64,000 nt of DNA, from NCBI RefSeq assembly GCF_003057875.1, contig NZ_PYXZ01000005.1, positions 96,690-160,689 on the forward strand, written 5' to 3'. Position 1 is the first letter of the stretch, and every line of letters starts with the position of its first letter. Under the pieces are notes generated by a model, which was not told the DNA's origin, did no database searches, and saw only the letters and a program-made list of their open reading frames with translations. The stretch comes from Nocardioides currus. Its GTDB lineage: Bacteria; Actinomycetota; Actinomycetes; Propionibacteriales; Nocardioidaceae. Positions 22,473-42,949 of the stretch are shown piece after piece. Both the position numbers and the translations under genes were made by a program.

Positions 22473-23249
22473 ATGGCACGCCGTTCCGTCCTCCTCCTCG
22501 TCGCCGCCCTGATCGCCCTCCTCGGCACGGCGCTGATCGTGCTCTACGTCAAGGGCATCGACCAGCGAGCCACCGAGGGCCAGGAGATGGTCGAGGTCCT
22601 GACCGCCTCCGCCACCATCGAGACCGGCGAGGACGTCGCCAGCGCCCAGGCCGCCGGCAAGTTCGAGAAGTCGCAGGTCCGTCGCGCCGACGTCGTCGAG
22701 GGCGCGCTCACCACGACCTCCTCGATCACCGACGACGTCGCGCTCGGCATGATCTTCCCCGGCGAGCAGATCCTCGCCGGCAAGTTCGGCAGCCTCAGCG
22801 ACGCCGACGGCCTCGTCATCCCCGACGACAAGCTGGCCGTATCGGTCGAGCTCTCCGACCCCGAGCGGGTCGCCGGCTTCGTCAACCCCGGCTCCGACGT
22901 GGCGATCTTCATCTCGGCCGACCCCAAGCTCGTCCTCCCGGACGGCTCGGAGAAGACGCTGCCGCCGTACACTCGCCTGCTGCTCCCGAAGGTGCAGGTC
23001 ATCGGTGTCGGTACGACGAGCGTGTCGTCCAAGACGACCACCACCGAGGCGGGTGCCGAGGTCGTCGAGCAGGTGCCGAGGACCATCCTCACCGTCGCGG
23101 TCGACCAGAAGGACGCGGAGAAGCTCATCTACGCCTCCCGCAACAGCGACGTGTCCTTCGCGCTGCTCACCAAGAACTCGAAGATCGCCGACAAGCCCGG
23201 CGTCACGGCCGACGAGCTGATGCCCGAGATCTTCCGGACTGCCCAGTGA
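22473..23249 (+). CDS. cpaB: CpaB/RcpC-like Flp pilus assembly protein
   Basis: 258 residues. One N-terminal membrane helix (MARRSVLLLVAALIALLGTALIVLYV) is followed by an SAF-type region: TASATIETGEDVASAQAAG, then GMIFPGEQILAGKFG, and a C-terminal RcpC domain with VSVELSDPERVAGFVNPGSD and AVDQKDAEKLIYASRN. CpaB proteins sit in the periplasmic or cell-wall space and support pilus assembly, perhaps contacting the wall. First gene of the Tad operon; its stop overlaps the next start (GTGA). Confidence 0.88.
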   Translation: MARRSVLLLVAALIALLGTALIVLYVKGIDQRATEGQEMVEVLTASATIETGEDVASAQAAGKFEKSQVRRADVVEGALTTTSSITDDVALGMIFPGEQILAGKFGSLSDADGLVIPDDKLAVSVELSDPERVAGFVNPGSDVAIFISADPKLVLPDGSEKTLPPYTRLLLPKVQVIGVGTTSVSSKTTTTEAGAEVVEQVPRTILTVAVDQKDAEKLIYASRNSDVSFALLTKNSKIADKPGVTADELMPEIFRTAQ

Positions 23250-24475
23250 CCGCGATCCTCGAGCCCGACTTCGGGCAGCTGGCCATCGTGCAGACCATGC
23301 TGCACGGGTCGGTGGCGTTCAACACGATCGAGGAGCTCGACGCCCACATCGCTGCGAACCCGCACGAGTTCGCCGTGGTGATCGGCCCCACGGTCGACGT
23401 CGAGGCCGCCACCGCGTTCGCCAAGTGGGCCCGCATCAACCGTCCGGACCTCGGCGTGATCCTCCTGCGTCGCACCGTCGACCACGACGTCCTGACCACG
23501 GCCCTGCGCAGCGGCATGCGTGAGGTCGTCGAGGCCAACGACCTGGCGGGCATCACCACCGCCGTCCACCGCGCCCGATCCGTCGCCAGCGAGATCGCCA
23601 AGACCATCGAGGTCGAGGCGCGGGCCGCCGCCACCTCGGCCGTCGCCCAGGCACGCGCCGACGTCGCCGCCGAGCAGGCGGCCGCGGACGCGCCGCAGGC
23701 CACCGTGCTGACCGTCTTCTCCACCAAGGGCGGGGTGGGCAAGAGCCTGGTCGCGACCAACACGGCCGTCGCGCTCAGCGACGCCGGTCAGCGGGTCTGC
23801 CTGATCGACCTCGACGTCAACAGCGGTGACGTGGCGATCATGCTCCAGCTGACCCCGGCGCGGACCATCAACGACCTGGTGGCCTTCAACGGCAGCATCG
23901 ACGAGCAGGCCATCGAGTCGATCCTGACGCGGCACTCCGACCGGCTCTCCATCGTCGCGGCCCCGGTCCGGCTGGACTCCCCCGACCATGCCTCGGCGGT
24001 CGACATCGGCACGATGATCGACACCCTCAAGGGCATGTTCGACTTCGTCGTCATCGACACGTCGGGGGTCTTCGACGACAACGCGCTGACCGCACTCGAC
24101 CGGACCGACACGATCATCCTGGTCGCGACCCTCGACATCCCGGCGCTCAAGGGCCTCAAGCTCGCGACCGGGACGCTCGACCTCCTCAACTTCTCGCGCG
24201 ACACCTGGAAGTTCGTGCTCAACCGGGCGGACGGCAAGGTCGGCCTCACCACCGACGAGTTCGAGTCGACGCTCGGGCTGAAGTCGGACATCTCGCTCGT
24301 CTCCAGCCGGGAGGTCCTCTCGGCGGTCAACCGCGGGGAGGCTCTGGTGCGCGCCTACCCGTCCCACGCCAACAGCAAGGCGATCACCAGCTTGGCCCAG
24401 TCGTTCGTCAAGGTCGACGACCGGGTGTCCACGGGATCCAAGTCAGGGTCCCGCCTGCGCCTCAGGAGGGGCTGA
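23246..24475 (+). CDS. tadZ: TadZ/CpaE-like ATPase of the Tad pilus
   Basis: 409 residues from GTG 23246. Residues 1-110 form an atypical receiver-like domain (GPTVDVEAATAFAKWARINR, then LRRTVDHDVLTTALRSGMRE). A MinD/ParA ATPase follows, with deviant Walker A KGGVGKS at 161-167 and VCLIDLDVNSGDVAIMLQL. An Ala-rich linker (about 120-150) joins the halves. TadZ/CpaE localises the Tad machine at the membrane or pole. The gene begins inside the cpaB stop and ends 1 base before tadA. Confidence 0.88.
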   Translation: MTAILEPDFGQLAIVQTMLHGSVAFNTIEELDAHIAANPHEFAVVIGPTVDVEAATAFAKWARINRPDLGVILLRRTVDHDVLTTALRSGMREVVEANDLAGITTAVHRARSVASEIAKTIEVEARAAATSAVAQARADVAAEQAAADAPQATVLTVFSTKGGVGKSLVATNTAVALSDAGQRVCLIDLDVNSGDVAIMLQLTPARTINDLVAFNGSIDEQAIESILTRHSDRLSIVAAPVRLDSPDHASAVDIGTMIDTLKGMFDFVVIDTSGVFDDNALTALDRTDTIILVATLDIPALKGLKLATGTLDLLNFSRDTWKFVLNRADGKVGLTTDEFESTLGLKSDISLVSSREVLSAVNRGEALVRAYPSHANSKAITSLAQSFVKVDDRVSTGSKSGSRLRLRRG

Positions 24476-24476
24476 C

Positions 24477-25993
<1,517 letters not shown>

Positions 25994-25997
<4 letters not shown>

Positions 25998-27913
25998 CGC
26001 TCCGGCACTGGAGCCGGTCCGGGGTGCTCCTCGCCTCCGCGATCGCCACCACGCTGCTGACGGCCACGCCTGCGCTCGCCGCCGACGAGGTGAGCATCGA
26101 CCACGTCGAGTCCACGGACGGCGTCGTGTCGATGATCGTCTCCGTCGACGGTGTCCCCGGCGGGGGCATCGGCAGCGACGACTTCGAGGTGCAGGTCGAC
26201 GGCAAGGGCGTGGACGCCGACGTCTCCAGCGTCTCCGCCGGCAACGTGTCACGATCGACCATGCTCGTCGTCGACGCCAGCAACAGCATGCGTGGCGCCA
26301 AGTTCGACGCAGCCTCCGACGCCGTGACCGCGTTCCTCGCCAACGCGCCGTCCGACGTCCAGGTCGGCATGGTCGCCTTCGCCGGCAAGGTCGGCACGGT
26401 GATCAAGCCCAATGGCGACCGCGCGGCCCTGCTCGACGAGTTCAAGAACCTCGACCTGACTGCCGGGACCAGCGTCTACGACGCACTCGACAAGGCCATC
26501 GACGTGGTCGGCACCGAGGGCTCCCGGTCGCTGCTCGTCCTCTCGGACGGGGCGGACACCGGCAGCAGCGCCACCGTGGCCGACATCGCCCGGAAGGCGA
26601 CCGACGCCGAGGTCGTCGTCGACGCCGTGTCGATCGGCTCGGTGGTCGACTCACTGCCCTTCGTCGAGCTGTCCGAGAAGACCTCGGGCCAGACGTTCCC
26701 CGCCGATGCCGACGCGCTCAGCCAGCTCTTCGCCGACCAGGCCGAGGCCCTCGCCCAGCAGATGCTGGTCAAGTTCAGCCTGCCTCCGGGCGTGAGCGGT
26801 GACGCCGACGTCGCCGTCACCGTCCAGGGCGCCGGCGACACCTTCGACGACTCCGCCTTCGTCAACGTCGGCGACCGCAGCTCGACGGCGGTCTCGGTCG
26901 AGCCCGAGTCCACGATCGTCGCCAAGCCCCTGATCGGGACCCCGGTGATGCTCGCCGGCGCCGTCGCCCTCTTCCTCGGGATCGCGGTCCTCCTGTGGGC
27001 CATGATCGCCGGCTCGACCGGCCGCAAGGCCTCGGTGGAGAAGCGCCTCAACTCCTACTTCGCCAGCGGCGACGGCCGGTCCGGCGACGACGTCGGCAAG
27101 CGCCGGGCGGCCGAGTCGGCCGTGTTCATGGACTCGGCGGTCGCGATCACCGACCGGTTGGTCAAGAAGGACTTCGAGGACCGGGTCAACAAGCGCCTGG
27201 TGGGTGCCGGTTCGGCCCTGACCGCGTCGGAGTGGGTGCTGCTGCACGCGGCCATCGCGCTCGGCACCGCGGCGGTCTTCTTCTTCCTCCTCGGCGGCGC
27301 CATGTCGGTCCTTGGCCTCCTGCTCGGGATCGCGCTCCCCTGGCTCTACCTCGGTCGACGCCACTCCAAGCGGCTGCGTGCGTTCAACGGCCAGCTCGCC
27401 GAGACCCTCGGCCTGATGGCGGGCGGCCTCCAGGCCGGTCTGTCCCTCCCGCAGGCCGTCGACACGGTCGTCCGCGAGGGCATCGAGCCCATGTCCGGCG
27501 AGCTGCGACGCGCGCTCGTCGAGCAGCGTCTCGGCATCGACATCTCCGACGCGCTCGAAGGCGTCGGCGAGCGGATGGAGAGCGAGGACTTCTCCTGGGT
27601 GGTCATGGCGATCCGGATCCAGCGCGAGGTCGGCGGCAACCTGGCCGAGATCCTGCACACCGTCGCGGACACGCTGCGCGAGCGGGAGTACCTCCGCCGC
27701 CAGGTCCGCGCCCTGAGCGCGGAGGGCCGCATGTCGGGCTACATCCTTGCCGCCCTGCCGGTCTTCGTGATGATCTGGTTGTCCTTTGCCAACCGTGACT
27801 ACATCGAGGTGCTGTGGACCACCCCGATCGGCTTCGTCATCCTGGGCGTTGCCAGCATGTTCCTCGCCCTGGGCGGCTGGGTCATGGCCAAGATGGCCCA
27901 AGTGGAGGTCTGA
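25994..27913 (+). CDS. tadB: VWA domain fused to TadB (T2SSF) platform protein
   Basis: 639 residues, twice the usual TadB length. A signal peptide ends near TPALAA (29-30). A VWA domain follows (about 85-255) with a complete MIDAS: D94-A-S96-N-S98, Thr in LTAGTS (156-160) and Asp in SDGAD (184-188). A membrane helix lies at about 318-340. The T2SSF domain (about 470-595) has GLMAGGLQAGLSLPQAVD and two terminal helices. The VWA would face outside and the T2SSF loop inside, so the pilus platform carries its own metal-dependent adhesion or partner-binding domain. The reading frame is continuous through the join. Confidence 0.9.
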
Positions 27914-27917
27914 CACC

Positions 27918-28856
27918 ATGTCGTCTTCGATGTTCCTTCTTCTCGGCGCCGTCCTGGTCTTCGCCGCGTTCACGCTCGCCCTCAGCCTGATCGGGGTGAC
28001 GAGCAGCGAGCGCCGCGGGGTGGCCCGGTCGATCGGTGCCATCCAGGCGCTCGACTCCGCTCCGAGCGCGCTCAAGGAGGCCGAGCTCGAGCGCCCCTTC
28101 GCCGAACGCGTGATCGGCCCCCTGGGCGACCGCTTCGTCGACCTCGGTCGCAAGATGGTGCGCGCCGACACGGCGACGAAGCTGCAGTTCCGCCTGGACG
28201 TGGCCGGCAACCCGCCCGGCTGGGGCGTCACCCGGCTGATCGGCCTGAAGGTCCTCGGCCTGTTCGTCTTCGGGCTGGGCAGCTTCTTCTACCTCGCCGT
28301 GCTCGGCATGCCGCTGATCCGGCTGTTCATCATCGCCGGGCTACTGGCCGCCTTCGGCTACGTCCTGCCCAACATCCTGCTCTACAACGCCGGCGAGAAG
28401 CGCTCCAAGCTCATGCGCAACGCGCTGCCCGACGCGATCGACCTGCTCACCGTCTCCGTGGAGGCCGGTCTCGGCTTCGACGCGGCCGTGAGCCGGGTGG
28501 CCCTCAACACGACCGGCCCGCTGTCCCAGGAGTTCGCCCGCCTCCTGCAGGAGATGCAGCTCGGCATCGGCCGCGCCGACGCCATGCGCGCCATGGCCGA
28601 GCGCTCGTCGATCCAGGACCTCAAGTCCTTCTGCATGGCCATGATCCAGGCCGACAGCCTCGGCATCCCGGTCGGCCGGGTGCTGCGGATCCAGAGCTCG
28701 GAGATGCGGGTCAAGCGCCGGCAGCGCGCGGAGGAGAAGGCGCAGCAGGTCCCGGTGCGGATCATGATCCCGCTGGTGCTGTTCATCCTTCCGTGCCTGT
28801 TCATGATCGTGATGGGTCCCGCCGCACTGAGCATGATCGAGATGTTCTCGCGGTGA
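27918..28856 (+). CDS. tadC: TadC (T2SSF) platform protein
   Basis: 312 residues from ATG 27918, 4 bases after tadB. An N-terminal helix (MFLLLGAVLVFAAFTLALSL), two central helices (about 110-160) and the T2SSF domain with LPDAIDLLTVSVEAGLGFDAA and ADSLGIPVGRVLRIQ, then a final helix IPLVLFILPCLFMIVMGPAA. With TadB it forms the inner-membrane platform on which TadA acts. The longer frame starting at 27786 lies inside tadB and was rejected. Its stop overlaps the kinase start (GTGA). Confidence 0.9.
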   Translation: MSSSMFLLLGAVLVFAAFTLALSLIGVTSSERRGVARSIGAIQALDSAPSALKEAELERPFAERVIGPLGDRFVDLGRKMVRADTATKLQFRLDVAGNPPGWGVTRLIGLKVLGLFVFGLGSFFYLAVLGMPLIRLFIIAGLLAAFGYVLPNILLYNAGEKRSKLMRNALPDAIDLLTVSVEAGLGFDAAVSRVALNTTGPLSQEFARLLQEMQLGIGRADAMRAMAERSSIQDLKSFCMAMIQADSLGIPVGRVLRIQSSEMRVKRRQRAEEKAQQVPVRIMIPLVLFILPCLFMIVMGPAALSMIEMFSR

Positions 28857-30427
28857 ACCCGACTGCCTCGCAGACCTTCAACGCGTCGCTGAGGCAGTGG
28901 CGAGTCACCACCGCGGTCCGGGTGTTCGGGCTGGCCCTGGCCACGGGGAGCGCCGCAGCGTCCGGCCAGCTCGGACAGGCGACGCCGCTGATCGCGGCGC
29001 TCGCCCTGATCGCCGGCGTCGCCAGCGCGCTCGAGTGGGGCACCCCCACGTTCAGCACCCGGTGGCTGCCGGTCGGCGAGGCCCTCCTGAGCGCGCTCCT
29101 GCTGCTCAGCGCCCCCGAGCAGCCCGGCGTGGTGGCCTACCTCGCGGTCCCGCCGATCGTCGCGGGTGTCCGCTCCGGGCTGGTGACCACGGTCAACGCC
29201 ACCTTCGTCGCGGCCGTCGCGAGCATCGCCACCACGGTGATCTCCTCCGAGCCGGACACGGTCGAACGCCTGACCCGGGCCGGCGTGTGGCTGCTCGCGG
29301 GATTCGGGGTCGGTCTGCTCGCGAGCTGGCAGCTGCGATCGGTCCGCGACTTCGAGGCCAAGCAGGCGCCGTACGCCGCTGCCAACCAGCTCATGGTCCA
29401 GCTCCACCAGCTCGCCCAGCGTGGCCGCCTCGGGCTGGACAGCGCCCAGCTCGCCGTCGAGCTCGAGACCGAGCTCCGGGCCGCGACGGGCGCGCAGCAG
29501 TCGGCCGTCTTCGTGATCGGCACCGACGACTCGGTCGGCCTGCTGGCCGCCCACGGCGACGCGGCGGCCCTGTTCGCCCTGCGCGACCAGCTCTCCCAGA
29601 GCGGCCAGACCCTCCCCGACGTCGCCGAGCTCCCGCTGCGCGCGGCGGACAAGATCCGCGGAACGGTGCTCCTCATCCGGTCCTCGGGGTGGACCGACGA
29701 GGAGCGCGCGGAGGTGCAGGAGATCGCCGACGAGTTCGTCGTGCGCCTCGACACCGCCGTCCTCTTCGACGACGTCCGCCTGATCGCGACCGCCGAGGAG
29801 CGCAACCGGCTGGCCCGGGAGATGCACGACGGCGTGGCCCAGGAGGTCGTCGCCCTCGGCTTCCTGGTGGACGAGATCGAGACCGTGTCGAGCGACCCCG
29901 AGACGCGGGCGCTCGCGGCCACCCTGCGCGACGAGATCTCGCGCGTCGTCACCGAGCTGCGGTTCTCCATCTTCGACCTGCGCCACCACGTCGCGGAGCA
30001 CCGGCTCTCCGGCGCCCTCGCGGAGTACGTGCGCGAGGTGAGCCACGGCTCCGACCTGCGCGTGCACCTGCTGCTCGACGAGTCCGGCCCACCGCTGCCC
30101 AGCTGGACGGAGTCCGAGCTGCTGCGCGTCGCTCAGGAGGCGATCGGCAACGTGCGCAAGCACGCCCAGGCGATGAACCTGTGGGTGACCCTGACCTCCA
30201 ACACCGCCGGGATCACCCTGCGGGTGGAGGACGACGGGATCGGCAACGCCGCGCCGCGCGAGCGCCACTGGGGCATCCAGACCATGACCGAGCGTGCCGA
30301 GCGGATCGGTGCGCACCTGACCATCTCCCCCCGACCGGACGGCGGCACCGTCGTCCTCCTGTGTTCCACTGACGTGGCCCAGCCCGAAAGGACCGAGACC
30401 CGTGACCATCACCGTTCTTCTCGTTGA
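28853..30427 (+). CDS. Histidine kinase of the Tad locus (HisKA_3 type)
   Basis: 524 residues from GTG 28853, overlapping tadC. About four or five membrane helices occupy residues 15-155. A GAF-like domain follows at about 190-315 (ELRAATGAQQSAVFVIGT). The phospho-acceptor is His325 in NRLAREMHDGVAQEVVALGF. The ATPase has VAQEAIGNVRKHAQA and VEDDGIGN, but its third box is RHWGIQTMTERAERIGAHL. It likely senses a membrane or small-molecule signal and phosphorylates the regulator encoded next, whose gene starts 26 bases before this one ends. Confidence 0.88.
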   Translation: MNPTASQTFNASLRQWRVTTAVRVFGLALATGSAAASGQLGQATPLIAALALIAGVASALEWGTPTFSTRWLPVGEALLSALLLLSAPEQPGVVAYLAVPPIVAGVRSGLVTTVNATFVAAVASIATTVISSEPDTVERLTRAGVWLLAGFGVGLLASWQLRSVRDFEAKQAPYAAANQLMVQLHQLAQRGRLGLDSAQLAVELETELRAATGAQQSAVFVIGTDDSVGLLAAHGDAAALFALRDQLSQSGQTLPDVAELPLRAADKIRGTVLLIRSSGWTDEERAEVQEIADEFVVRLDTAVLFDDVRLIATAEERNRLAREMHDGVAQEVVALGFLVDEIETVSSDPETRALAATLRDEISRVVTELRFSIFDLRHHVAEHRLSGALAEYVREVSHGSDLRVHLLLDESGPPLPSWTESELLRVAQEAIGNVRKHAQAMNLWVTLTSNTAGITLRVEDDGIGNAAPRERHWGIQTMTERAERIGAHLTISPRPDGGTVVLLCSTDVAQPERTETRDHHRSSR

Positions 30428-31049
30428 CGACCATGAGCTGATCAGACAGGGTCTGGCGCGCGCCTTCGAGCGCGACGACCAGTGCACCGTGGTCGGCCAG
30501 GCCGGCACGGTGGCCGCGGGCCTGGCTGCCTACACGGAGCTGCAGCCCGACGTCGTCGTCTCCGACCTCCAGCTGCCCGACGGCCACGGGCTCGACGTGG
30601 TGCGCGGCGTGCGGGCCGAGAGCGACACCGCCGGGGTCGTCGTGCTCACCATGCACGCCGGCGACGACCAGATCTTCGCCGCCATGGAGGCGGGTGCGTC
30701 CGGCTTCGTCGGCAAGGACAGCAAGGCCACCGACGTCGTCAGCGCGGCCAAGCACGCGGCCGTCGCCCCCCGGACCTTCCTGTGCACGGGCCTCGCGGCG
30801 GCGATGATGCGCCGCGCGACCTCACCCTCCACGCCGACGCTCTCGGCGCGCGAGGAGGAGGTGCTCTCGCTGCTCGCCGACGGGCTGGGCACCGGCGAGA
30901 TCGCCGGCAAGCTCTACCTCAGCGAGTCGACCGCCAAGACCCACATCACGCACATCTACCAGAAGCTCGGCGCCGCCAACCGCGCCCAGGCCCTGGTGAC
31001 GGCCATGCGCATGGGACTTCTCGACCACCTGGCGCCGCAGCGCTTCTGA
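30402..31049 (+). CDS. NarL/FixJ-type response regulator of the Tad locus
   Basis: 215 residues from GTG 30402. The receiver has DD at 9-10, Asp55 (VVVSDLQLPDGHG) and Lys105 (GFVGKDS). The LuxR HTH has LSAREEEVLSLLADGLGTGE and the recognition helix ESTAKTHITHIYQKL. It is translationally coupled to the kinase and closes the operon, followed by a strong terminator. Its probable targets carry the dyad AGYCC-GAAN-GGACT found before cpaB, flp1 and the giant surface protein gene; that link is inference. Confidence 0.9.
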   Translation: MTITVLLVDDHELIRQGLARAFERDDQCTVVGQAGTVAAGLAAYTELQPDVVVSDLQLPDGHGLDVVRGVRAESDTAGVVVLTMHAGDDQIFAAMEAGASGFVGKDSKATDVVSAAKHAAVAPRTFLCTGLAAAMMRRATSPSTPTLSAREEEVLSLLADGLGTGEIAGKLYLSESTAKTHITHIYQKLGAANRAQALVTAMRMGLLDHLAPQRF

Positions 31050-31636: not shown

Positions 31637-31789
31637 ATGAACGCTCGGCCCGAACACGAGGCAGACCACGAGCGCGGCGCGACCGCCGTGGAGTACGGCC
31701 TGCTGGTCGCACTGATCGCCGGCGTCATCATCACCACCGTCATCTTCCTGGGGCAGCACATCATCCCGCTGTACGAGCTCACCTTCTGA
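31637..31789 (+). CDS. flp: Flp family type IVb pilin 2
   Basis: 50 residues. The leader MNARPEHEADHERG is polar and charged, the cleavage site is after Gly14, and ATAVEYGLLVALIAGV is nearly identical to flp1. The mature protein is 36 residues, ending QHIIPLYELTF rather than the Ser/Thr-rich end of flp1. CGGAGG lies 6 bases before the ATG. It is probably a second pilin or a minor/initiating subunit. It lies downstream of the flp1 hairpin. Confidence 0.9.
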   Translation: MNARPEHEADHERGATAVEYGLLVALIAGVIITTVIFLGQHIIPLYELTF

Positions 31790-38654: not shown

Positions 38655-38731
38655 GCCCGACCATTCGCCGTCCACGAGTCGCCCGCCGCCCCTAGCGTGC
38701 GCATGTCATGTCGCGAATCTGGGGGATCAAC

Positions 38732-41700
38732 ATGCCTGTGCCCGTGCCTGCTCGACGCTCGATCATCGGGCGGTTCATCCCCGCCCTGGTGCTGGCGATC
38801 GGCATGTCCCTCCTCGCAGCAGCGCCGCCCGCGAGCGCTGCGGCCGAGGCTCCGAGCGGCCTCACCGCCAGCGGATCGCCCATCCCGACCCTGTCGTGGG
38901 GCGTCGTGTCGACGGCCGACCGCTACCGCGTGCAGGGCTCCGAGGACGCGAGCTTCTCCAACCTGCTGTTCAACGAGGAGACCAACGGCAACCGCTACAC
39001 GCCGACGCGACCCTTCCGTGCCGGCACGCTCTACTGGCGGGTCCAGGCCTCCGACCAGACCGGCACCAGCGGCTTCAGCACGTCGCAGGTGACGATCGCG
39101 GCCCCCAAGGTGCCGACCAACCTGGCCGTGTCCTCCCCCGCCGGCCAGGTGCTACCGCCCGTCTCGCCCCCGGTCATCTCCTGGGCCCCCGTCGCCGGTG
39201 CCACCAACTACGAGATCGAGATGGACGCCGAGGGCGACGGCGTCGGCGGCACGCTGCGCGGCAACATCCGCACCACGACCTTCGTCTGGCCGGACCCGCA
39301 GGGCGTCGGCGAGCGCGCGGGCTCCGAGGACTTCTTCGTCCGCGTCCGCGCCCGCTTCGACTTCGATCTCCAGAGCGACTGGTCCTCGTGGGTCAAGTAC
39401 GACGTCGCCCAGCTCCCGCCCGTGACCTCCACCACCTGCGCCACCGGCCTCGTCTGCGCCCCCGACCCGACCGCGGGCGTCCGTGACAGCCGCACCGTGC
39501 AGGACGTCGTCTTCGACTGGGACCCGGTCAAGGGCGCCAAGCAGTACGAGGTCTGGGTGGCCCTTGACCGCGACTTCAACAACCAGGTCGAGAAGCGGAT
39601 CGTGAGCTCGACGCGCTACTCGCCCCAGACGACGTACGACAACAACAACTACTTCTGGAAGGTCCGCGCCTACAACGCGGCCGAGCAGCCCACCCCGTGG
39701 CCCGCCTCCCCCAACGTCTTCCAGCGCCGCTGGCCGATGTCGCCCACGCTGGTCTACCCGCCCGTGGCCTCGTCGCCGGCCATCGGTGACGACCTCTACT
39801 TCCAGTGGAGCCCGGTCAAGCACGCCACCCGCTACCGGCTCGACGTCGGCGGCGACGTCAACTTCACGCCCGGGTCGTTCGTCAAGTGCTACACCGCGAG
39901 CACGACCTACACCCCCGGCTTCCGCAACGACGGGTGCATGCCGCCGCAGGGCTCGGTCGTCTTCTGGCGGGTCTTCGCCTACGACCTGCCCGGCCCCTAC
40001 GGCACGCCCGACACCGGCGAGCCCGGCGTGGAGAGCAACGTCTCGGCCACCGGCCGCTTCGTCTACGACTCCGGCGCCGTCAACCTCACCTACCCGGCCG
40101 ACGGCGCGACCGTCGCCGTGCCGACGATGGCGTGGCAGCCCAGCAGGGACGCCGAGCGCTACCGGGTGACCGTCACCAACGTCTCCACGGGCGAGGAGCG
40201 CGTCGTCGAGACGACCGCCCTGTCGTGGACGCCGTACGGCGCGCTGCCCACCGACAACGACAACGACGACCCGACCCGCCAGCCCGACACCTTCGTCTGG
40301 AAGGTGTCCGCCCGTGACGCCGACGGCAAGTACTCGCCGGCCCCCCTCTACGCGACGCGTTCGTTCGTGCTGCCCGAGACGCCGCCGGCCGCGGGCGGAC
40401 AGCCGCTGCGCCCCCTCGCCAACGAGCACGACACGATCACCTCGCGGTTCCCGTCGCTGTCGTGGCAGCCGTGGTCGCAGGCCGAGCCCGGCGCGGTCTA
40501 CTACTCGTTGAAGGTCGCCCAGGCCGGCTACGTGTTCGGCACCAACGAGACCGAGGTGCTCGGTGCCCGGCTGAACTACCCGGCCGTGACCGACCAGAAC
40601 GACTTCTTCCTCTCCCCCGGCACCTACGACTGGTGGGTGGAGGCGCGCAGCTCGAGCAACAACCAGATCCTCGGCACCGGCACCAGGAGCACCTTCACGA
40701 TCGCGGACCAGGGCGAGGTCACCGGCCAGCGCGTCGCGCTCGACGGCAAGGCTGTCGACGCCGGCAACACCTGCAACCGCCGGCTCGTGCTGGTCAACCA
40801 GGTCGCCGACGAGGCCACCATCTGCCAGGGCCTGCCGGCCACGCCGGTGCTCGACTGGGACTCCATGCCCGGCGCCGGCGGCTACATGATCTACCTCTCC
40901 GAGGACCCCGACTTCACCAACCTGCTCCTCGACCCGCAGAACACGACGACGCAGAACTCCCGCTGGACCCCGTCGTTCGCCGACGCGCTGCCGGCCTTCG
41001 ACGACAACGAGTCGGGCCCGGCCTACTACTGGTTCGTCCGCCCCTGCGTGCGCATCAGCCAGTTCAGCAACTGCGGACCGGACCCGAGCGGGTCCGAGGA
41101 CGTCGGGACCAACGCGTTCCGCAAGGTCTCACCCAAGGTCGTGCTCACCTCCCCCGCAGCTGACACGTCCTTCGCCGACGAGGTCACCTTCACGTGGCAG
41201 GACTACTACGACACCAACCAGGCGAAGCCCTCGCCGTACGGCGGTGCCACGCCGAGCCACCAGACCGGCAAGCGCTACCGCATCCAGGTCGCCCAGTCGG
41301 CCACGATCACCGACTCCAACGCCATCGACGACCGGTACGTGGACCAGGCGACGTACACCGCCTACGAGAACACCTACCCCGAGGGTGACCTGTGGTGGCG
41401 CGTGCAGGCCATCGATGCCCGGGAGAACAAGCTGGCCTGGTCCGACACCCGCAAGATCGTCAAGGCCACGCCCGCGCCCAATCTCGACCCCAACGTCGCG
41501 GCCCCGGTCGAGCGCCCGAGCGTTGACCCTGCCGCCAGGCCCGCCTACGGCAGCCACGTCGGCGCCGGCCCGGTGACGTTCCAGTGGTCGGCCGAGACCT
41601 TCGACGCCACCTGGGACATCGAGCTCTACAAGAACGACGACACCTCCCTGTCCGCGGCCAACCGCGTGTTCTCCGAGCAGGTGCGCCAGGCCGCCTTCGC

Positions 41701-42949
41701 CTGGACCGAGCCGCTGGCCGCGTCGTCCGAGGCCTACCGCTGGCGGGTGCGGCGCACCGACGTCCGCGGCAAGCCCGGCCGCTGGTCGGACTTCGGCCGG
41801 TTCTGGATCGACCCGCTCCCGGTCACGCTGGCGACGCCGGCCGACACCGCGGTCATCGATCCCTACGGAGCCTCCTTCACCTGGGCGCCGTACGCCGCGT
41901 CGGCCTCCTCCCAGGCCTCGCGCTACCTGTTCGACATCGAGCCCGTCGGCGGGGTCGGCTACAACCCCGGGCCCGTGAGCACCCCGGCCACGGCCTGGTC
42001 GCCGCAGCAGACCATGCCGTCCGGCTCCTACACCTGGTCGGTCACGTCGTACGACGCCCGCGGCAACCGCATCGGGTCCAGCCCGACGTGGCGCTTCGAG
42101 GTCGACGGCGCGGTCCGGGTCGTCACCCCGGCGGCGATCCAGGCGCCCGGCGGCTCGGCCGTGGGCCAGACCCTCACCAGCTCCGACCCGGTGTGGTCGC
42201 GTCCGGACGTGATCAACGCCTACCAGTGGCTGCGTGACGGCCAGCCGATCGGCGGCGCCAACGCGCCGACCTACACGCTGATCAACGAGGACTACACCCG
42301 TGCGGTGTCCCTGCGCGTGACCGGTCGCAAGCCCGGCTTCAGCGACGGCTCGTCGACCAGCAACGCCTTCGCGATCACGGCGGGCGGTGCGGTCATCAAC
42401 ACGATCGCCCCGGTCATCTCCGGCAAGGCGGCCCCCGGCAACACGCTCAACGTCACCGGCGGGATGTGGTCGCAGCAGTCGGAGCTCAGGTACCAGTGGC
42501 TGCGCCAGGGCGCGCCCATCCCCAACGCGACCGGGTCGAGCTACAACCTGTCCGCGCTCGACGCCGGCAAGCAGCTGACGGCGATGGTGTTCGCCAAGGC
42601 CAACGGCTTCGCCGAGGGCTCCGCCAGCACGGCGCCGGTCCAGGTCGCGCGCCTGACCTCGACGGTCACCCTCGCCCTGTCCGCCGACCGGGTCAGCCGC
42701 AAGACGCGCGTGAAGGTCGGTATCACGGTCGCGGTGCCCTACCTCCCGGGACCGACCGGCCAGGTCAAGGTGTTCGACGGCGCCAAGGCGCTGAAGACCC
42801 TCACCCTGCTGAGCAAGAGCAACGGCCAGGTGTCCTGGAAGCTGCCCAAGCTCAAGAAGGGCAAGCACAAGATCAAGGTCGTCTACCTCGGCACGCCGTC
42901 GGTCGTCGGGTCGAAGTCGAAGGTGACCAAGCTCTTTGTGGGCAAGTGA
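38732..42949 (+). CDS. Giant secreted protein with Fn3-like and Ig-like repeats
   Basis: 1405 residues from ATG 38732, which has GGGGGATC just upstream; ATG 38708 is an alternative. The signal peptide ends at APPASAAAEA. Residues about 30-1120 hold around ten beta-sandwich units of Fn3 type, each with a motif such as FDWDPVKGAKQYEVWVA or LYFQWSPVKHATRYRLDVGG and a later WRVQA or WKVRA. Residues about 1127-1305 hold two Ig-like repeats with NAYQWLRDGQPIGG and LRYQWLRQGAPIPN. The C-terminus is a Lys-rich Ig-like domain (LKKGKHKIKVVYLG). No LPXTG or membrane anchor is seen. It is probably a surface adhesin or matrix protein. The promoter carries the Tad-locus dyad. Confidence 0.88.
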   Translation: MPVPVPARRSIIGRFIPALVLAIGMSLLAAAPPASAAAEAPSGLTASGSPIPTLSWGVVSTADRYRVQGSEDASFSNLLFNEETNGNRYTPTRPFRAGTLYWRVQASDQTGTSGFSTSQVTIAAPKVPTNLAVSSPAGQVLPPVSPPVISWAPVAGATNYEIEMDAEGDGVGGTLRGNIRTTTFVWPDPQGVGERAGSEDFFVRVRARFDFDLQSDWSSWVKYDVAQLPPVTSTTCATGLVCAPDPTAGVRDSRTVQDVVFDWDPVKGAKQYEVWVALDRDFNNQVEKRIVSSTRYSPQTTYDNNNYFWKVRAYNAAEQPTPWPASPNVFQRRWPMSPTLVYPPVASSPAIGDDLYFQWSPVKHATRYRLDVGGDVNFTPGSFVKCYTASTTYTPGFRNDGCMPPQGSVVFWRVFAYDLPGPYGTPDTGEPGVESNVSATGRFVYDSGAVNLTYPADGATVAVPTMAWQPSRDAERYRVTVTNVSTGEERVVETTALSWTPYGALPTDNDNDDPTRQPDTFVWKVSARDADGKYSPAPLYATRSFVLPETPPAAGGQPLRPLANEHDTITSRFPSLSWQPWSQAEPGAVYYSLKVAQAGYVFGTNETEVLGARLNYPAVTDQNDFFLSPGTYDWWVEARSSSNNQILGTGTRSTFTIADQGEVTGQRVALDGKAVDAGNTCNRRLVLVNQVADEATICQGLPATPVLDWDSMPGAGGYMIYLSEDPDFTNLLLDPQNTTTQNSRWTPSFADALPAFDDNESGPAYYWFVRPCVRISQFSNCGPDPSGSEDVGTNAFRKVSPKVVLTSPAADTSFADEVTFTWQDYYDTNQAKPSPYGGATPSHQTGKRYRIQVAQSATITDSNAIDDRYVDQATYTAYENTYPEGDLWWRVQAIDARENKLAWSDTRKIVKATPAPNLDPNVAAPVERPSVDPAARPAYGSHVGAGPVTFQWSAETFDATWDIELYKNDDTSLSAANRVFSEQVRQAAFAWTEPLAASSEAYRWRVRRTDVRGKPGRWSDFGRFWIDPLPVTLATPADTAVIDPYGASFTWAPYAASASSQASRYLFDIEPVGGVGYNPGPVSTPATAWSPQQTMPSGSYTWSVTSYDARGNRIGSSPTWRFEVDGAVRVVTPAAIQAPGGSAVGQTLTSSDPVWSRPDVINAYQWLRDGQPIGGANAPTYTLINEDYTRAVSLRVTGRKPGFSDGSSTSNAFAITAGGAVINTIAPVISGKAAPGNTLNVTGGMWSQQSELRYQWLRQGAPIPNATGSSYNLSALDAGKQLTAMVFAKANGFAEGSASTAPVQVARLTSTVTLALSADRVSRKTRVKVGITVAVPYLPGPTGQVKVFDGAKALKTLTLLSKSNGQVSWKLPKLKKGKHKIKVVYLGTPSVVGSKSKVTKLFVGK

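Follow-up and report, generated by a model that had tools for sequence, protein, structure and literature searches.

A VWA domain joined in frame to the platform protein TadB in tad loci of Nocardioides currus and other Actinomycetota

The gene positioned between tadA and tadC in Nocardioides currus encodes a single chain of 639 residues, in which a putative signal peptide, a VWA domain with complete MIDAS, a linker and a full TadB follow one another. It was analysed in the window (here and below, the whole stretch of 64,000 nucleotides from contig NZ_PYXZ01000005.1). This VWA-TadB fusion is a widespread variant of the known platform protein TadB and is not peculiar to the N. currus genome. 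We tentatively consider it as an old form of TadB, whose VWA, tethered at the base of the pilus, would provide metal-dependent docking with an accessory function, and assign to this reading a probability of roughly 0.42. Type IV filament machines are commonly depicted with a platform that acts in the membrane as a rotor or extruder and exposes no domain outside. A platform bearing a strongly conserved domain of binding type offers a handle on how the base of the Tad pilus meets the filament or the wall. Tad machines have received little attention in Actinomycetota, which are a large phylum, and the many natural unfused forms found in similar operons constitute a ready control set. No description of the fusion was found in open-access full text as far as its available portions extend, subscription papers and preprints being outside this scope and protein databases possibly listing the architecture without comment. 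In the text searched, neither "VWA" nor "von Willebrand" occurs in a survey of type IV filaments (PMC6668835) or in a study of Micrococcus luteus Flp (PMC4322843), and "von Willebrand" is absent from the searched text of the CpaF structure paper (PMC11300603).

Architecture of the fusion gene and its tad operon

According to the original prediction, a signal peptide and a VWA domain with full MIDAS (DASNS, Thr, SDGAD) are joined in frame to T2SSF of TadB, which normally has no ectodomain, and each element of this description held upon closer analysis. The gene is one ORF without interruption, its third-position G+C (0.96) is coding-like, and its start overlaps the tadA stop by 4 bases. Both domains exceed the curated Pfam cut-offs, VWA_2 over residues 89-186 (E 4.9e-18) and T2SSF as one stretch over residues 473-596 (E 4.1e-22, 78.9 bits vs cut-off 25.2), and T2SSF, VWA_2 and VWA are the only Pfam matches of the protein at E ≤ 0.001. 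It is assigned to TadB by this single T2SSF above cut-off and by the gene location directly between tadA and tadC, and to the VWA domains with MIDAS by the DxSxS, T and D residues together with the VWA fold. All five MIDAS residues (D94, S96, S98, T159, D185) are in place. A motif of AxA type located near the expected position in 101/120 fused rows argues for the signal peptide, and four of four unfused TadBs scanned match T2SSF alone. Assembly error, lost stop codon or sequencing artefact are excluded because dozens of other genomes carry the same fusion. Features of the locus are collected in the table.

Table. Features of the fusion gene and of the tad operon in the window, in window positions
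Feature	Coordinates	Strand	Basis
CpaB/RcpC	22473..23249	+	Pfam RcpC E 7.6e-19
TadZ/CpaE-like ATPase	23246..24475	+	AAA_31/ParA; CpaE_hom_Actino below its cut-off
TadA ATPase	24477..25997	+	T2SSE E 1.6e-64; TIGR03819 below its cut-off
VWA-TadB fusion gene, 639 aa	25994..27913	+	single ORF; Pfam VWA_2 and T2SSF
Putative signal peptide, residues 1-30, AxA-type end (ALA), cleavage inferred	25994..26083	+	sequence; helix 2-22 in model; AxA motif in 101/120 fused rows
Ectodomain, residues 33-292: N-terminal strands, VWA core, C-terminal strands	26090..26869	+	AlphaFold2; VWA structure matches
MIDAS motif 1: D94, S96, S98 (DASNS)	26273..26287	+	sequence, alignment of fused rows
MIDAS T159	26468..26470	+	sequence, alignment of fused rows
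MIDAS motif 3: S184-D185-G186-A187-D188	26543..26557	+	sequence, alignment of fused rows
Variable A/P-rich linker, residues 293-315	26870..26938	+	pLDDT < 50 over 295-315; length and entropy over 118 rows
TadB proper: TM1 (from residue 316), TM hairpin, cytoplasmic T2SSF (473-596), C-terminal TM helices; topology inferred	26939..27910	+	Pfam, AlphaFold2
TadC	27918..28856	+	T2SSF E 1.8e-17
Sensor histidine kinase (start not settled)	28853..30427	+	HisKA_3, HATPase_c
LuxR-type response regulator	30402..31049	+	Response_reg, GerE
Flp pilin 1, 59 aa	31377..31556	+	Flp_Fap E 5.4e-16
Flp pilin 2, 50 aa (start inferred)	31637..31789	+	in-frame Flp_Fap match just over cut-off

The operon has the order cpaB, tadZ, tadA, VWA-tadB, tadC, histidine kinase, response regulator, flp, flp, the kinase and the LuxR-type regulator (28853-31049) lying between tadC and flp. 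TadE is represented in the same genome by six matches on four other contigs and by none on the window's contig, and the tie between these genes and the tad locus of the window is assumed. One of the other contigs (L227:7398-9909) carries a TadE gene and a gene for a TadG-like protein of 596 aa, upstream of an ORF which by eye is groEL-like. Three further pairs of T2SSF genes are present in this genome (L063, L064, L065), where the VWA profile finds none. At 38708-42949 of the window a predicted secreted protein of 1413 aa with matches to bacterial Ig-like domains is encoded; nothing ties it to the tad locus.

Distribution and evolutionary history of the fusion

A survey among actinobacterial Tad loci, proposed earlier as a check, found the fusion to be widespread. 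Searching with the window protein revealed it in at least 39 of 59 genomes of the genus, own genome included; among the matches listed, 8 of the 59 have only an unfused orthologue (a match from about residue 316 with E 3e-72 or better) and 12 have neither, and the four named relatives found are all Nocardioides. In other families of the order the fusion is present in at least 2 of 37 genomes, while a 20-row profile detected it in the class in at least 40 of 296 genomes, which belong to 14 families (a single match spans the fusion in 37 of these genomes, and three, G124, G248 and G327, were recognised by pieces), and in the phylum sample it amounts to at least 49 of 346 genomes, 46 of them lying outside the window's class in 26 families. 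The phylum count takes one match over both halves that starts at model position ≤ 100, and the partial cases G433, G647, G639, G428 and G513 stay outside it. All these values are lower bounds read from the listed matches, with the best few candidates scored per genome. A collection of plasmids gave 316 matching records, none of which covers 80% of the query.

Fused and unfused loci differ in the spacing between the tadA stop and TM1, which falls into two modes, 669-1407 bases in the former and 0-198 bases in the latter, with one row (L172) lying in between at 438 bases. On the TadB tree (175 rows, 122 fused), which is a quick tree with some long branches, the fused/unfused label changes 18 times, at least 13 changes being forced by well-supported branches, as compared to a mean of 45.6 for shuffled labels. 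This tree leaves out a cut copy of the window (L002), a row cut at a contig end (L171) and L172 for its intermediate gap; rows L219 and L222 were scored as fused on account of a divergent VWA being present. Distances between VWAs and between TadBs correlate over 120 fused rows with r 0.84 vs ≤ 0.19 in 999 permutations, and for 82/120 rows the closest VWA belongs to one of the five TadBs at the smallest distance; as judged from these distances, VWA and TadB are shown to have evolved together, by common descent.

When VWAs from different proteins are compared, 64 TadB-VWAs appear on one side of a branch (support 99) vs 20 other VWAs, with L271 and the long branches L219 and L222 left out; the 20 were picked from high-scoring hits and are not exhaustive, three of them being open at the 5′ end of the stretch. 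In the first clade test, with 21 other VWAs, the TadB-VWA clade was rejected (AU p 0.008), the cause being the single row L271. This VWA ORF (L271:3-941, minus strand) is truncated directly after the VWA, where the contig ends, and groups within TadB-VWAs. It may be the front of another fusion, and since its genome, G616, carries a fused TadB elsewhere, there are perhaps two. Resolution of this case removes an objection to a single origin. Unfused Nocardioides TadBs L046, L050 and L051 still start with an apparent signal peptide, TM1 following shortly after, and L046 retains a stretch resembling the linker end of the fused relative L028. The compared sequences are explained most simply, and also fitted best, by one old fusion with repeated loss thereafter; most of the fused/unfused changes would then be losses, although parsimony alone leaves the direction of each change unfixed.

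Among rows with more than 12 kb of sequence, cpaB, tadZ, tadC, flp and a response regulator like that of the window are found, respectively, in 41, 45, 45, 42 and 16 of 45 unfused loci and in 31, 32, 32, 28 and 18 of 32 fused ones. No separate VWA ORF was detected in these 45 and 32 rows by the TadB-VWA profile, which a very different VWA could escape, and the idea of the VWA residing as a neighbouring gene in unfused loci was accordingly rejected. Loci without VWA look otherwise complete, so the best reading of their gene content would be an accessory rather than essential VWA; its repeated absence shows the domain to be dispensable for whatever the locus does.

The absence of separate VWA ORFs from these 77 rows also bears on the assumption that in practice two proteins are made, the fused chain being cut or internally started to give a free VWA and a normal TadB, since separate genes might be expected if separate products served equally. 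The variable linker suits cleavage, but a Met aligned to position 318, the position checked for a conserved internal start, exists in just 2/120 fused rows, and we regard the two-protein scheme as very unlikely.

Predicted structure, conservation and possible role of the ectodomain

AlphaFold2, supplied with 20 relatives, modelled the full chain with mean pLDDT 77 and pTM 0.44 as a helix 2-22, strands 33-79, VWA core 87-254, strands 257-291 and a long helix (TM1) starting from residue 316, the residues 295-315 having low confidence (pLDDT < 50); the ectodomain taken alone (31-310) reached pLDDT 91 and pTM 0.86. Judging by the order of elements, the strands flanking the VWA core look like one additional sheet beside the VWA. 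Structure searches with the VWA part as query matched the ectodomain model strongly to VWA structures at Z about 20-24, among them 4fx5 (Z 23.6, rmsd 1.9 over 173 aligned residues), the ArnAB complex with one chain (23.2), Mfa5 (22.0), SpaC (20.4) and integrin I domains (about 20). Many unrelated VWAs score alike, however, and a common fold shows no function.

In the first set, which counts 45 fused ORFs with that of the window among them, none of the five MIDAS residues varies. Among 120 complete fused rows, which comprise the window's own copy and do not count the cut rows L117 and L041, MIDAS is exact in 116, S96 is replaced by Thr in two (L126, L142), and in two more the MIDAS is lost with the VWA domain kept; these MIDAS-less fused TadBs (L219:6159-8366 and L222:6431-8623) come from distant genomes. 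Relative to the window, the median identity is highest in T2SSF (0.59), lower in the VWA core (0.35) and lowest (0.20) in the stretch formed by TM1 and the cytoplasmic part behind it. Mean entropy was estimated over 118 rows, leaving out L117, L041, L219 and L222, so that the values for MIDAS are given without the two site-less rows. It constitutes 1.14, 1.71 and 1.13 for the three MIDAS loops, 1.8-2.8 for other loops, 1.48-2.23 for core strands, 1.33 for T2SSF and 3.03 for the linker, which over the same rows has a length of 11-40 residues (median 24) and consists by 35% of Ala plus Pro. Ligand binding by the VWA is plausible because two of the three MIDAS loops are its least variable segments. 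Conservation alone is no proof of a binding face, since loop 214-218, which presumably belongs to the metal face, varies widely (entropy 2.76) and the core strands are conserved about as much as the second MIDAS loop.

In the reading that we prefer, the flexible linker would tether the predicted exported, MIDAS-competent VWA immediately outside the membrane, at the site where the Flp filament emerges from the platform. The divalent metal of the VWA would then bind to an acidic group belonging to a ligand located between the membrane and the wall. Most likely this ligand would be a component of the pilus system itself, i.e., the minor-pilin tip complex or the filament, so that the VWA may dock the nascent filament or tip to the platform, or hold it there, and may thereby tune nucleation, retention or switching between extension and retraction. 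As ligand, a part of the machine is favoured over an environmental molecule because the MIDAS loops are uniformly conserved across very different classes. The two site-less fused rows and the repeated absence of the domain count against such MIDAS-based docking, and the mixed conservation of the VWA surface weighs slightly in the same direction. Acidic columns tracking the presence of VWA were sought in CpaB (81 rows), Flp (72) and TadC (175), and none was significant after tree pairing, with few informative pairs and weak power; before pairing, one candidate column was seen in CpaB, one in TadC and none in Flp.

A location predicted immediately outside the membrane, a linker that is short and flexible, and the same conserved MIDAS loops are also consistent with a wall anchor, in which metal-dependent attachment of the VWA to peptidoglycan or a wall polymer would keep the pilus machine in place beneath the wall, as a monoderm stand-in for part of the job performed by periplasmic alignment proteins of diderms. 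Actinomycetota are indeed regarded as monoderm. This alternative seems doubtful, as many unfused loci have the same neighbours, no wall-binding domain is recognised by Pfam, and VWAs with MIDAS usually bind acidic protein groups.

Binding of the host, also suggested in the original prediction, now looks less likely, and an adhesin role in general, with host or environmental ligands bound outside the cell, is highly improbable. In its fold the VWA resembles two pilus adhesins, SpaC and Mfa5 (Z 20-22), though unrelated VWAs score as high. The 11-40 residues anchoring the VWA to the membrane platform should keep it inside the monoderm wall, which is thick, and the MIDAS residues are conserved across many families.

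The suggestion that the VWA passes force or signal to the platform survived only in a weakened form, and we consider as rather unlikely that the domain is a mechanosensor or signal receptor of the base, reading filament tension or contact and passing it to TadB/TadA or to the histidine kinase of the operon. Precedents are provided by force-induced changes in PilY1 involving its VWA (PMC8806160) and by the VWA of CpaL/TadG proposed as a mechanosensor (PMC12607857), and a kinase/regulator pair does lie in the operon. Rigid transfer of force disagrees with the linker, which, being A/P-rich, variable and predicted to be disordered, would make a poor lever. The two-component pair gives no support for signalling via VWA because a regulator like that of the window is kept in 11/11 unfused as well as 13/13 fused loci among the 24 Nocardioides loci checked, i.e., independently of the VWA.

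The fusion in comparison with known VWA-bearing pilus proteins

In other pili the VWA works with tip proteins, as described for CpaL/TadG (PMC12607857) and PilY1 (PMC8806160). Caulobacter CpaL, the TadG orthologue, is a minor-pilin-like protein with a VWA predicted to hold canonical MIDAS and proposed as a mechanosensory element, possibly at the pilus tip (PMC12607857), and TadG-like proteins of Myxococcus are reported to form customised tips (PMC12075869). All 13 Nocardioides TadG-like proteins examined (8 from fused and 5 from unfused genomes) match Tad (PF13400), seven above cut-off and six below it (L234, L238, L243, L244, L247, L255), and Pfam recognises a VWA in none of the 13. The VWA profile applied to 32 minor-pilin and neighbouring loci found the domain only in six fused TadBs lying there. 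Relocation of the VWA to TadG when it is missing from TadB was thus not seen in the TadG-like proteins of the five unfused genomes, the other three unfused genomes having no TadG-like protein by motif scan. As far as these sequences indicate, the platform is the part of the Tad machine on which the VWA is seen in these Nocardioides genomes, the TadG-like proteins examined being devoid of it; no claim of domain transfer between proteins is made. A more specific scheme, in which the VWA module of the TadG/CpaL tip protein of other Tad machines sits in Actinomycetota on the platform of the motor as a metal-gated clamp or sensor, gripping the filament or tip complex and coupling pilus load to TadA-driven extension and retraction, appears unlikely.

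With TadG/CpaL the fusion shares the presence of a MIDAS VWA in a Tad machine, but there the domain is carried by a pilin-like protein (PMC12607857) and here by the membrane platform. The fusion protein has no match to PF13400 at E ≤ 0.001, and its helix 2-22 ends by eye in an AxA motif, not in a prepilin site. The C-terminal half of the fusion protein is helical with T2SSF and contains no beta-propeller, whereas PilY1 carries a C-terminal beta-propeller domain. PilY1 and PilB of Streptococcus sanguinis (T4aP) have in common with the fusion a VWA attached to a type IV pilus system, but in these cases it belongs to a tip-associated protein or minor pilin (PMC8806160, PMC12075869, PMC6916266) and not to the platform. 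SpaC and Mfa5 share the VWA fold, both being tip adhesins of other pilus types and not platform proteins. Membrane VWA proteins of BatA/BatB type have a VWA of similar fold (3ibs, 4jdu, Z 20-21), but they are not known to possess T2SSF or to be located in tad operons. With TadB/CpaG of Tad (T4cP) the fusion has in common one T2SSF, a similar layout of TM segments and the gene location between tadA and tadC; what sets it apart are the putative signal peptide and, ahead of TM1, about 260-280 residues of VWA ectodomain.
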